From assembly GCA_947488655.1 (NCBI GenBank), contig CANKZZ010000005.1, positions 186,001-250,000 of the forward strand: a stretch of 64,000 nt of DNA, written 5' to 3'. The position numbers were made by a program, and so were the translations under genes. Below, piece by piece: positions 1,170-64,000 of this stretch (positions within the stretch are counted from its first letter, which is position 1; each line of letters starts with the position of its first letter). This DNA comes from an uncultured Psychroserpens sp. (lineage in GTDB: Bacteria > Bacteroidota > Bacteroidia > Flavobacteriales > Flavobacteriaceae). The notes under the pieces were generated by a model. The model worked only from the letters and a program-made list of their open reading frames with translations, made no database searches and was not told the DNA's origin.

Positions 1170-1999
1170 TTTGTTGAATGTCGTTTATAAAATTCTTTGG
1201 CATGCTCGGGTAATTTTAATTGTAATTTTTTGTCTACGATAGATACAATTTCGGGAAAAATAATCTGTGTCAACTCATCACAATATACCTTAGCAATTTC
1301 GGTTGCCAAAACTAAGGTGTTTTTAAAGTTTTGCGTAATATATTTTAAAAAATATCCATTACCTTGAAATGTGTCATTAACTAATGCTGTAGATGCTATT
1401 GGCTTCGGAAATTGGATTCCTTCCAAACTTTGTCTCCATAATTCTATATCGTCTCCAAATCTATCATTATCAACATTAGAGGTGCCTAAATTCCATGTTG
1501 GCACTTCCCTATCCCAACGTTTCCAGTTATAGCTATGCATATCATAAACTATGGCTACACCAAATTTTTCTTCTAACTTAGAAATTAAAGCATGCGTAAC
1601 TTTATAAAAATTTGCATGCTTTGCTAAACTTTTATTTATCATTTCTTGTGATAGAGGTTTATGCCATAATTCTTTTCCCCAAGCAGTCTCAAAAACTGCA
1701 TTTTCAGGATCGCGATTTAAATCATACTCAAAACGAGAATCACATCCTGCAATTACAATTGGATGTGAATGAACCATTTGTTTAGTTTCTGGATCTTCTT
1801 CATACCAGCGCTCATACTCCGTATGTATACAATTAGCCCAAAGCTCTTTTCTAAATTGATGACCATCATGCACAGCTGCACAAGCGTAATGCACATAATT
1901 ATCAATTTTTATAGTTAATGAATAATCATCTGCAACAGCATGAAAAATCTCTTCATTGTTTATTTTGGCAATAATGTCTGTAATGGATAATTTCTGCAT
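1166..1999 (-). CDS. N-formylglutamate amidohydrolase family protein
   Basis: HSHPIVIAGCDSRFEYDLNRDPENAVFETAWGKELW and VYDMHSYNWKR motifs typical of the family. Confidence 0.85.
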   Translation of the reverse strand: MQKLSITDIIAKINNEEIFHAVADDYSLTIKIDNYVHYACAAVHDGHQFRKELWANCIHTEYERWYEEDPETKQMVHSHPIVIAGCDSRFEYDLNRDPENAVFETAWGKELWHKPLSQEMINKSLAKHANFYKVTHALISKLEEKFGVAIVYDMHSYNWKRWDREVPTWNLGTSNVDNDRFGDDIELWRQSLEGIQFPKPIASTALVNDTFQGNGYFLKYITQNFKNTLVLATEIAKVYCDELTQIIFPEIVSIVDKKLQLKLPEHAKEFYKRHSTK

Positions 2000-2002
2000 A
2001 AC

Positions 2003-2332
2003 TTAATTCAATATTTTTTTCAACATGTTATAAGTGGCTAACTCCATTTGGTCCATGCCCTCATCTGCAAAAGCCATCAATTTGATATCTGCAAATAAAG
2101 CGTCCAAATTATTACTATAAGTATCTTCATGTTTAACGCCTTCAATAATTTTATTTAAGCTTTGATAATCATTATCATTATCAAACTCTTCTTTTATATG
2201 AATATAGGTATCAATATCTACTCGAGATAAAATATACTTACGTTCTTTTCTTGTTTCTTCTAGATCTGAATGAGCCACATATAATAATACGTAAGCAACT
2301 AATTCTTGTTTTGTCCAATTATTATTTTTCAT
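2003..2332 (-). CDS. small TerB-like/hypothetical protein
   Basis: 120-aa track ORF; start reassigned to the internal ATG (MKNNNWTKQELVAYVLLYVAHSD), 2 bp after the upstream gene's stop. Confidence 0.65.
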   Translation of the reverse strand: MKNNNWTKQELVAYVLLYVAHSDLEETRKERKYILSRVDIDTYIHIKEEFDNDNDYQSLNKIIEGVKHEDTYSNNLDALFADIKLMAFADEGMDQMELATYNMLKKILN

Positions 2333-2334
2333 AA

Positions 2335-61263: not shown

Positions 61264-61306
61264 GTCCCATGAGAGTATGCCTCAAAGCACCTTATGGGAC
61301 TTTCTC
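61264..61306 (+). terminator. possible intrinsic terminator
   Basis: GTCCCAT...ATGGGAC stem followed by TTTCTC, weak T-run. Confidence 0.5.
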
Positions 61307-61424
61307 ATTATTACCCACAGAGGTAATTATCTCCTTTATTTAAAAGATTTTAAAATACTCACAGTCACAGAAGATTGCAAAGAGTTAATAATTATGTGTT
61401 GCATCTAAAAAACTTAAACAGTCT

Positions 61425-62885
61425 TTAACGCTTTAACTTCAAATACGTTCTTATAGCTTCGGAAATATCTTCGGAAACATGTAACCTATATATTAAGAAA
61501 AAGTAGACAATACCAATTACAATAGACTTTAATGCAATATTTAAATAAGCGTTAAACGGAAATTCCCAAAAATAAAATCCAAATACTATTACAATTAGTA
61601 AAACTGTAATTTTTAAAGTTTCAGTAGAAAACGGAAGCATATTAAATTTTTGTTTTACAAATATGATTTTTATCGTATTGTAAATAAAGATTGCAATAAA
61701 AGTAGCGAGACCTGCTCCATTAATCCCAAAACGAGGTATTAATACTAAATTAAGTATAATTGCCAATACTGCTAAAATTACCCCAAAGACAAGTACCATT
61801 CTGTAATAATCGCTATTAAATAAAATAGCGTTATTGTTTCCTAAGAGATTGTCATATAATTTGGCGATACTTATCAAAAATACAACCAACAAGCCTCCAC
61901 TAAATTCCGAAGGAATAATTTGATACAATTGGTTAATATTTAAAACAATTAATAAAAAAATAAAACCACTAATGATATATAAAGTAATAGAGCTTCTTTG
62001 ATATAAATCTCTAAGTGCTACATTGTTTTTTTCATTTAAAAACCTAGCTGTTAATGGTAATAATATTTGGTGCATTGCTCTTTGAGGCACTGCAATTACA
62101 GTTGCAATAAAAACTGCAACACTATAATAAGCAACAGTCTCTATTTTAATATAATTGTTGAGCATAAATTTATCTAAATCTAGTATAATTGTTGACACAG
62201 AGCCTGCAATAATAATAAGTGAAGAGTATTTTAAAATAGAGCTTAATTTTTCTATTCTGTAAAATTTAAATACTGGGAGTCTTTGACTAAAAGCATAAAA
62301 CATCATTAGTAATGCTCTAAGTACATAAACACCAACAATACCTTTCATAAATTGATCAATATCTATAAACTTAAAATAGATAGCAAACAATAATAGCATA
62401 GCGCCAACACGATGAAAAACCTCTTTCATAAAGTTCCCAAAAACGGTTTGCATTTGTACTTTCATCCAAGCATAAAACACTTCAAAATATGCCATAGAAA
62501 GCGCTGTAATAAATATATACCACAGGTAGCCTCCAACAATTTCGTTTTTTGTAGTTAGCAAATCTACTAAGATACCATGAGCCATATAACCAACAAGTGC
62601 TAATGGTATTGAGAGTACAATTGGCAAAAATAGCATTAAGGTTAAAAAACTATTAAGTGAGTTTTTAGTTTTAAAAGTAGAATAGAATTTTACAATTGTA
62701 TTGTGAGCTCCAAAAGCCATTAATGGCATCATAATATTAGCAGCAGATAAAATGTATGCGACTAAACCATAATATTCATCACTTATAAAATTAGTATATA
62801 AAAAGAGTGCATTTATGGCTCCTAATCCAAAACCTAGATAGGTGGTTACGGTGTTTTTTAAGGATTGATTAATTACAATTCCCAT
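61425..62885 (-). CDS. polysaccharide flippase / lipopolysaccharide biosynthesis membrane protein
   Basis: About 12-14 hydrophobic segments, Wzx-like layout, 486 aa. Confidence 0.85.
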   Translation of the reverse strand: MGIVINQSLKNTVTTYLGFGLGAINALFLYTNFISDEYYGLVAYILSAANIMMPLMAFGAHNTIVKFYSTFKTKNSLNSFLTLMLFLPIVLSIPLALVGYMAHGILVDLLTTKNEIVGGYLWYIFITALSMAYFEVFYAWMKVQMQTVFGNFMKEVFHRVGAMLLLFAIYFKFIDIDQFMKGIVGVYVLRALLMMFYAFSQRLPVFKFYRIEKLSSILKYSSLIIIAGSVSTIILDLDKFMLNNYIKIETVAYYSVAVFIATVIAVPQRAMHQILLPLTARFLNEKNNVALRDLYQRSSITLYIISGFIFLLIVLNINQLYQIIPSEFSGGLLVVFLISIAKLYDNLLGNNNAILFNSDYYRMVLVFGVILAVLAIILNLVLIPRFGINGAGLATFIAIFIYNTIKIIFVKQKFNMLPFSTETLKITVLLIVIVFGFYFWEFPFNAYLNIALKSIVIGIVYFFLIYRLHVSEDISEAIRTYLKLKR

Positions 62886-64000
62886 TAGATAATTCTAGAC
62901 AAAACTTTGGTTAGTGATTTTCTACTATACTGTTCTAATCCAATAGCATTTACAACTAGAGTTTTAGATTTATAATCTTCAAAATACGATAAAATTTGTG
63001 ATTTCATCTGTTCCTTCTCCTCGTAATAAAAATATCTGCCAGTATTTGTAGATTTTAAAATGGTTTCCACATCAGAATCTGTTGGACCTACAGCCATAAT
63101 TGGAGTTCCAGATGCCATATATTCAAATAATTTACCAGGAATAATAACTTTAGTGTCTTTAGAATCTATCTCAACCATCAACAATACTCGAGAAGCCATT
63201 TGCGCTTTTATCGCTTCCTCATGAGTCACATAACCAACAGTATAAATGTAAGCTTCTAATTGAAAATCTTTGAGTGTTTGCAACACATCTTCACTCACAA
63301 CGCCAATTAATTTTAATTGAAATTCACTTCGGAAATTTTCATTCTCGTCAATAAGTTCTTTTAAAGCAGTCCATAATTGCTTTGGGTTTCTTTCAGATAA
63401 TAACGAACCAATATGAGCTATCGTGAATTTTTCGTCCTTTTCAGGACGCTCAATCTTGTGCGCATCAAAACCATTTGTAATAACAGTTATGGGTTGTTGA
63501 GTTTTAGATAAAAACTCTTTTTTGGTATTCTCACTAGTGACGATAATTTCGTCTGCGCTTTGTAATACTTGTGATTCTAATGCGCTGTGTTTATCTGCAG
63601 ACGATTTAGACAACTTCAACTGTTTATGATAACCAATGGTTGTCCAAGGATCTCTAAAATCTGCCAGCCACTTCACTCCTAGTTGCGCTTTTAATTGTAA
63701 ACCAATGAGATGTAAACTATGAGGTGGACCAGTAGTAATTATAGTTTCTATATTGTTTTCTTTGATATAATCTGAAAGAAATTTTACAGAAGGTTTCACC
63801 CAACCCTTTCTAGCATCTGGTATAAAAAAGTTGCCCCTCACGTACAACATCAAACGTTGCACGAAGCTTTGCTTTTTTTTCTTAGGGATCACACCAGAAC
63901 TAATCTGTTTAGAATCTTTTTTTGATAATAGATTAGCAAAACGATAAGGTTCGCTGATGGGTTGCTTTATGATTTTTATGTCTGGAGAAATTTCTCTCAA
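62885..64000 (-). CDS. glycosyltransferase (GT4-like), 5' end truncated by window end
   Basis: TIAHIGSLLSERNPKQLWTALKELI...IPGKLFEYMASGTPIMAVGPTDSDVETIL. Confidence 0.88.
   Translation of the reverse strand: MREISPDIKIIKQPISEPYRFANLLSKKDSKQISSGVIPKKKKQSFVQRLMLYVRGNFFIPDARKGWVKPSVKFLSDYIKENNIETIITTGPPHSLHLIGLQLKAQLGVKWLADFRDPWTTIGYHKQLKLSKSSADKHSALESQVLQSADEIIVTSENTKKEFLSKTQQPITVITNGFDAHKIERPEKDEKFTIAHIGSLLSERNPKQLWTALKELIDENENFRSEFQLKLIGVVSEDVLQTLKDFQLEAYIYTVGYVTHEEAIKAQMASRVLLMVEIDSKDTKVIIPGKLFEYMASGTPIMAVGPTDSDVETILKSTNTGRYFYYEEKEQMKSQILSYFEDYKSKTLVVNAIGLEQYSRKSLTKVLSRII

Follow-up and report, generated by a model that had tools for sequence, protein, structure and literature searches.

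The octamer TTCCGAAG is scattered over both strands of a 64,000-nucleotide stretch (hereafter the window) of the draft genome of an uncultured Psychroserpens sp. (Flavobacteriaceae; GenBank assembly GCA_947488655.1, contig CANKZZ010000005.1, positions 186,001 to 250,000), where it had been noticed on the letters alone. We report that it is the top-ranking 8-mer of this genome and that there is strong support for selection acting on the DNA itself rather than on the encoded protein. By analogy with the uptake signal sequence (USS) of Pasteurellaceae and the DNA uptake sequence (DUS) of Neisseriaceae, we lean towards regarding the octamer, with its T-rich upstream and A-rich downstream flanks, as a candidate uptake signal that preferential uptake, followed by recombination, would keep in place.

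Genome-wide abundance and selection at the DNA level

In the whole draft genome (G000; 3.6 Mb, 32% GC), TTCCGAAG occurs 580 and 615 times on the two strands, 1,195 copies altogether, against 119 (57 + 62) for the reversed control word. The expected number was 239 under a Markov-4 model with the motif included and 31 under a Markov-3 model with the motif sites masked, the observed count being 38 times the latter; the ranking among 8-mers was by maximal-order Markov score. Genes were called with a simple script of our own, which gave 3,131 genes and 90% coding sequence. On this basis 468 sites read in the sense and 537 in the antisense direction of a gene, and 189 are intergenic, so that the non-coding 10% of the genome is the denser part, and within genes reverse-complement copies outnumber direct ones (841 vs 591). 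Two synonymous-codon null models were run, one of which preserved neighbouring bases, and they predicted about 25 sense and 26 antisense copies in coding sequences (CDS), about 51 vs the 1,005 observed, a roughly 20-fold excess. The sense copies are unequally distributed among the frames (340/106/22), with several frames occupied. The excess proposed by the sequence-only reading therefore extends to the whole genome; since the count greatly exceeds what the Markov and codon models predict, and neither a single frame nor a single amino-acid pair accounts for the copies, neither of the two outcomes that it had held to speak against itself was found. Its argument for selection on DNA and not on protein is likewise borne out by the synonymous nulls, the intergenic density and the site conservation described below.

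Some further features of the genome were observed alongside. Convergent intergenic regions carry 1.20 sites per kb vs 0.57 in other intergenic regions. The longest motif-free stretch, of 24 kb (G000 C3:122284-146532), has 29.6% GC and is possibly recently acquired DNA. Among palindromes, GGATCC (182 vs 463 expected), GGTACC (532 vs 973) and also AGATCT are strongly avoided, as if by past or present restriction.

Conservation and distribution among relatives

The relatives of G000 were sampled as stretches of 80 to 260 kb, and the conservation of sites in DNA aligned to G000 was compared with that of CpG-containing words of the same composition. In four relatives with 79-81% nucleotide identity to G000, the exact sites were kept in 41 of 61 cases (67%; G010), 38 of 49 (78%; G011), 70 of 87 (80%; G006, Psychroserpens sp. 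Hel_I_66) and 16 of 30 (53%; G018), while the control words were kept in 9-15%. In P. algicola (G005), which has an intermediate number of motifs, 23% of the sites are conserved, and in the motif-less G021 only 3%, vs 6% for the controls. The check at orthologous positions suggested by the sequence-only reading thus came out in its favour. With identical control words and a relative lacking the motif as yardsticks, protein constraint is a poor explanation of this contrast; individual sites are maintained one by one in genomes that use the motif and are free to decay elsewhere.

Within the genus the count of TTCCGAAG ranges from 2,174 down to 75, with the two strands nearly equal in each genome, and the six genomes richest by ratio to the control form one clade in a core tree built on two proteins. 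In the family, clear enrichment of the 12-mer TTTCCGAAGAAA is seen in some thirty-odd of 301 genomes, belonging to scattered genera, and the others are near the control. In the fetched DNA stretches of four genomes of distant genera (G334, G125, G088 and G112; 35 to 41% GC), TTCCGAAG ranks first or second among the 8-mers and is comparably sharp. In named genomes, 785 copies vs 252 of the control were counted for Gramella sp. AN32, and in Winogradskyella psychrotolerans no excess over the control was found. This patchy distribution resembles the sporadic distribution of competence. In G088 and G112 (loci L123-L126, L164-L167 and L175-L178), TTCTGAAG and TTTCTGAA are also strongly over-represented, and may represent a signal variant that is related or degenerating.

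Core and flanks of the motif

The core reads T-T-C-C-G-(A>T>C)-A-G, with positions 1 to 5 and 8 sharp and a few sites varying at position 7. It is embedded in AT-rich flanking sequence of about 45 bp that is asymmetric: downstream, an A-tract runs from about +8 to +17; upstream, position −1 is T, positions −2 and −4 are A, and T-tracts occupy −6 to −8 and −14 to −16, with a faint further one near −31 to −36. The signature is clearest at intergenic sites, where coding limits are absent. The extended form TTTCCGnAGAAA given by the sequence-only reading stands as a symmetrised summary, but does not render the real flanks, which are asymmetric. Words with one mismatch mostly lack the flanks, those mismatched at positions 6 and 7 being the exceptions, so that decayed sites must be few; the ratio of perfect to singly mismatched copies is 0.53-0.65, vs 0.03-0.06 for the control words. 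As a separate observation, the near-misses at core position 1 (ATCCGAAG, CTCCGAAG and GTCCGAAG) are below expectation in G000 (21 vs 70).

Strand, spacing and orientation of neighbouring sites

The draft genome has gaps, and the replication strand was assigned by GC skew as a proxy for an origin-to-terminus map. By this measure no strand bias of TTCCGAAG was found in G000 (571 vs 568), and on this ground replication polarity of the leading-strand Chi type or of the FtsK-orienting polar sequence (KOPS) type was rejected; the role in chromosome polarity that had been among the possibilities for the motif is for this reason disfavoured. The spacing follows a Poisson distribution, with a coefficient of variation of the gaps of 1.00 and a variance/mean ratio of 1.10 per 20 kb.

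The orientation of neighbouring sites is not random: 985 of 1,647 neighbours are opposite (p 1.7e-15). With the gene-strand preferences kept in the expectation, divergent pairs (CTTCGGAA...TTCCGAAG) at 60-160 bp are more than twice as frequent in G000 as expected (63 vs 28), convergent pairs at the same distance are rare (8 vs 28), and same-orientation pairs at 200-1000 bp are depleted (184 vs 275), an avoidance not shown by sites of opposite orientation. The longer-range effect was seen again when G006, G010, G011 and G018 were pooled, with 95 divergent, 62 convergent and 101 same-orientation pairs at 300-1000 bp; it did not recur in the four other genera. To us this suggests that the two orientations answer separate, saturable needs over about 1 kb. 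Two sources of the pattern were considered and rejected. The pair distances show no helical phasing, only a period of 3 from coding frames, and position within genes gives a weak bias (p 0.06) while pairs between genes show the divergent pattern too. The opposite orientation of neighbours, including the pairing at 60-160 bp, is not fully accounted for by any model.

Sites in the window

All 23 exact starts of TTCCGAAG/CTTCGGAA listed in the sequence-only reading were verified (10 plus, 13 minus), while in 100 dinucleotide-preserving shuffles of the window the word turned up 1.0 times on average and never more than 4 times. The seven TTCCGnAG variants described there are also present, together with an eighth that had escaped it, and its four intergenic placements (5721, 26581, 28542 and 58310) agree with our gene caller. 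The exact sites of TTCCGAAG are as follows:

1403..1410, minus strand, in CDS 1166-1999(-)
5721..5728, plus strand, intergenic, TTTTTCCGAAGAAAAA
11678..11685, minus strand, in CDS 11472-11987(-)
14377..14384, plus strand, in CDS 14057-14452(+)
16514..16521, minus strand, in the topoisomerase IV subunit A-like gene 16434-19097(-)
21656..21663, plus strand, in CDS 21552-21929(-)
21719..21726, minus strand, in CDS 21552-21929(-)
24342..24349, minus strand, in CDS 24281-25342(+), left member of a divergent pair with 24733
24733..24740, plus strand, in CDS 24281-25342(+)
26581..26588, minus strand, intergenic
28542..28549, minus strand, intergenic
33001..33008, plus strand, in CDS 32965-33261(-)
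33624..33631, plus strand, in CDS 33316-33912(-)
37009..37016, minus strand, in CDS 36683-37345(+)
38467..38474, plus strand, in CDS 38093-38857(+)
46343..46350, minus strand, in CDS 45196-46449(+)
48004..48011, minus strand, in CDS 47574-48104(+)
55615..55622, plus strand, in the uvrA-like gene 53859-56642(+)
58310..58317, plus strand, intergenic, ATTTCCGAAGAAA
61457..61464, minus strand, in CDS 61425-62885(-), 12 bp from the 61469 site
61469..61476, minus strand, in CDS 61425-62885(-)
61905..61912, plus strand, in CDS 61425-62885(-)
63327..63334, minus strand, in the CDS beginning at 62885(-)

The variants at the sixth core position are:

11589..11596, plus strand, TTCCGCAG
21983..21990, minus strand, TTCCGnAG, intergenic
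23238..23245, plus strand, TTCCGTAG, intergenic
31694..31701, minus strand, TTCCGnAG, in the TonB-dependent-receptor-like gene 29911-32310(+)
45734..45741, plus strand, TTCCGCAG
46690..46697, minus strand, TTCCGnAG, the additional variant
52014..52021, plus strand, TTCCGGAG
53355..53362, minus strand, TTCCGnAG

A candidate uptake signal and its machinery

Among the functions considered, an uptake sequence is the best supported, because most of the hallmarks of USS and DUS are present and homologues of the Riemerella transformation genes are found. The hallmarks used for comparison were those reported for USS (PMC1626085, PMC2346458); over-representation, strand balance, intergenic preference, a high ratio of perfect to mismatched copies, AT-rich flanks and an excess of reverse-complement copies in genes are all observed here. 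Like the USS of H. influenzae and other Pasteurellaceae (AAGTGCGGT), TTCCGAAG has a short asymmetric core, AT-rich flanks and copies on the order of a thousand in both orientations. The abundance of perfect relative to singly mismatched copies is also shared, although in H. influenzae this ratio exceeds 1 and the feature is therefore weaker here. Unlike the USS, the motif has an unrelated core, occurs in a different phylum, is flanked by AT-tracts on both sides and not only 3', is spaced in a Poisson and not a regular manner, and is found in G000 without the ATPase of type IV pili and type II secretion systems (T2SS). With the DUS of Neisseriaceae (GCCGTCTGAA, read by ComP) it has in common that it is genome-wide, acts at the DNA level and is shared by relatives in several genera; by contrast, its core is unrelated, its flanks in Psychroserpens are extended and no clear dialects were found, no dialect word being seen in 184 kb of G021 or 80 kb of G195. 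The resemblance to a DUS that had been suggested from the window thus stands for most computable hallmarks and for the Riemerella-type genes, but not for regular spacing or for the pilus ATPase.

The DUS reader ComP is a minor pilin of the type IV pilus, and the pilus/T2SS ATPase (PF00437) was absent from G000 and from five other motif-bearing genomes (G006, G018, G005, G003 and G020), which makes a minor pilin like ComP, or like the predicted reader ComN, an unlikely reader there. Pilus-based uptake is a trait of the systems known so far rather than of the signal. We prefer, by analogy, the pilus-independent route known from Riemerella as a possible route for the tag. In Riemerella anatipestifer, RA0C_RS04920 and RS04915 are both essential for transformation, and homologues of this pair in Psychroserpens have been listed (PMC8459023). 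In G000 the pair corresponds to an operon of a DUF5689 lipoprotein and a neighbouring outer-membrane protein (OMP) at C1:465061-469421, with the same domain pattern and gene order as RA0C_RS04920/RA0C_RS04915. DUF5689 and ComEC are present in all 26 genomes of the genus, and a pattern search found a ComF-like protein and RecA in G000; the Riemerella machinery comprises the RA0C_RS04920/04915 pair, ComEC, ComF and DprA. R. columbina, also flavobacterial, favours its own DNA in competition (PMC7965970). In Riemerella itself no uptake sequence has been described; the one published k-mer search that we found, in Riemerella and F. johnsoniae and by raw count, gave only A-rich words (PMC7965970, Table 3).

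By analogy, a surface receptor of this machinery would bind double-stranded DNA bearing the tag, which would then enter through the outer-membrane protein and ComEC, with DprA and RecA carrying out recombination. Incoming DNA would be enriched in tagged alleles, and for this reason recombination would spread and maintain the tag by molecular drive. We infer the promotion of uptake by the tag, its reader protein, and its upkeep by drive and not by other selection. A narrower version of the proposal, which we advance only tentatively and would not put above an even chance, is that this is the first uptake signal of Bacteroidota and is pilus-free, a DUF5689-type surface protein or its partner reading double-stranded sites of about 45 bp directionally; directional action of the sites would explain both the repulsion of same-orientation sites and the divergent pairing.

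Structure predictions for two DUF5689 proteins (mean pLDDT 86 and 85) matched many beta-sandwich domains, including OB-fold DNA-binding entries (RPA; p204 HINab with dsDNA); as the global TM-scores are low, the models are compatible with DNA binding and do not go beyond that. A second DUF5689 protein, secreted by the type IX secretion system (G000 C2:104283-106034; loci L107-L115), is present in nine of the 26 genomes of the genus, all nine with at least 3-fold motif enrichment, and the remaining 17 have a protein with the same C-terminus and a different middle part. As a receptor identified by co-occurrence it was rejected and remains only a lead, because six of the nine carriers belong to one clade and the association fails across the family.

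Several results weigh against an uptake signal, the main weaknesses being the transformation genes retained in G021 and the lack of a consistent link between receptor and motif. In G021, a pilus-type ATPase, ComEC and the DUF5689 + OMP operon are all retained; these genes were thus not lost together with the motif. The versions of DUF5689 do not follow the motif either, since the motif-rich G010 and the motif-poor G002 share one that is only about 30% identical to that of G000, and the second DUF5689 protein tracks the motif in the genus, not across the family. Neither DprA nor the HHH protein was recovered by the pattern search. A replacement 8-mer was sought in 184 kb of G021 and 80 kb of G195, and none comparable was found; moreover, the spacing more even than random that is a trait of USS was not found in G000. 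Beside these points we note that the DUF5689 + OMP operon has been swapped for divergent alleles among close Psychroserpens relatives (loci L139-L163), its history being strongly discordant: between G000 and G010 the operon neighbours are about 90 to 95% identical, DUF5689 30% and the OMP 58%.

Alternative explanations

A Chi-like signal, at which AddAB/RecBCD-type enzymes degrading DNA ends would stop on meeting TTCCGAAG in one orientation and then load RecA, would be kept dense in both orientations by selection. The resemblance to Chi of E. coli (GCTGGTGG) and its equivalents lies in the octamer length, the orientation-dependent spacing (same-orientation sites avoid each other at 200-1000 bp, opposite ones do not), and the occurrence of AddA/AddB-like PD-(D/E)XK proteins (about 1,057 and 934 aa) in motif-rich and motif-less members of the genus. 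The density of about 1 per 3 kb lies within the range of known Chi sites. We nevertheless consider this explanation unlikely: E. coli Chi is biased to the leading strand and our motif is not, G021 has lost the motif while retaining the AddAB-like genes, the distribution in the family is patchy, and a signal read as single-stranded DNA would not be expected to have T- and A-tracts in some 45 bp of flank. Rather improbable, too, is another genome-wide signal, bound for example by a nucleoid or repair protein or modified by an orphan methyltransferase. The cyanobacterial octamer HIP1 (GCGATCGC) is hugely over-represented across its group, and infrequent in some members, for reasons other than uptake (PMC4390886); AT-tract flanks would suit a bending protein, and the excess of divergent pairs at about 60-160 bp also speaks for a signal of this kind. 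HIP1, however, is palindromic and tied to orphan methyltransferases, whereas TTCCGAAG is asymmetric and not its own reverse complement; most sites lie within genes and are not restricted to regulatory regions, and a methylation target would give no reason for asymmetric flanks or orientation-dependent spacing. The recombination-hotspot and methylation or HIP1-like functions, both named in the sequence-only reading, are thus less likely than an uptake signal.

Two more explanations have little left in their favour. As RNA, the reverse complement TTTC-TNCG-GAAA might form a UNCG-tetraloop hairpin acting in terminators or mRNA structures: CTTCGG is the C(UUCG)G tetraloop, the arms of the 12-mer are complementary and convergent intergenic regions are denser in sites. 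This is very improbable, as both gene strands carry sites, the first core T is near-invariant while its would-be partner is A in about 70%, and the arms do not covary (with A at −1, position +10 is A in 129 of 155 sites and T in only 7%), which rules out the hairpin. There is practically no chance that the motif is a by-product of protein sequence or codon usage (e.g., Ser-Glu) or a mobile repeat that has spread. The unequal sense frames would suit a by-product, but the enrichment on each strand above the synonymous nulls and between genes, and the keeping of sites in motif-rich relatives and not in G021, rule out a protein-level or codon cause; 1,657 distinct 68-mer contexts among 1,658 sites rule out a mobile repeat.

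Significance of the motif

The statement that no such motif is known in Flavobacteriia agrees with our search of the literature, mostly in freely accessible journals, which found none; for the octamer itself the papers returned were all unrelated and contained its letters by chance. To our knowledge, uptake signals are established in Pasteurellaceae and Neisseriaceae only, both Proteobacteria that use type IV pili. If the motif were Chi-like instead, it would be, as far as we know, the first such signal proposed in Bacteroidota. If TTCCGAAG is an uptake signal, Bacteroidota would add a third case, independent of the other two and in genomes that lack a pilus ATPase, and DNA self-recognition would have evolved again with a different machinery. 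The prediction is a concrete one, an 8-bp core plus its flanks in culturable species, and such a signal would offer a direct handle on the unknown outer-membrane step of transformation in Flavobacteriia.

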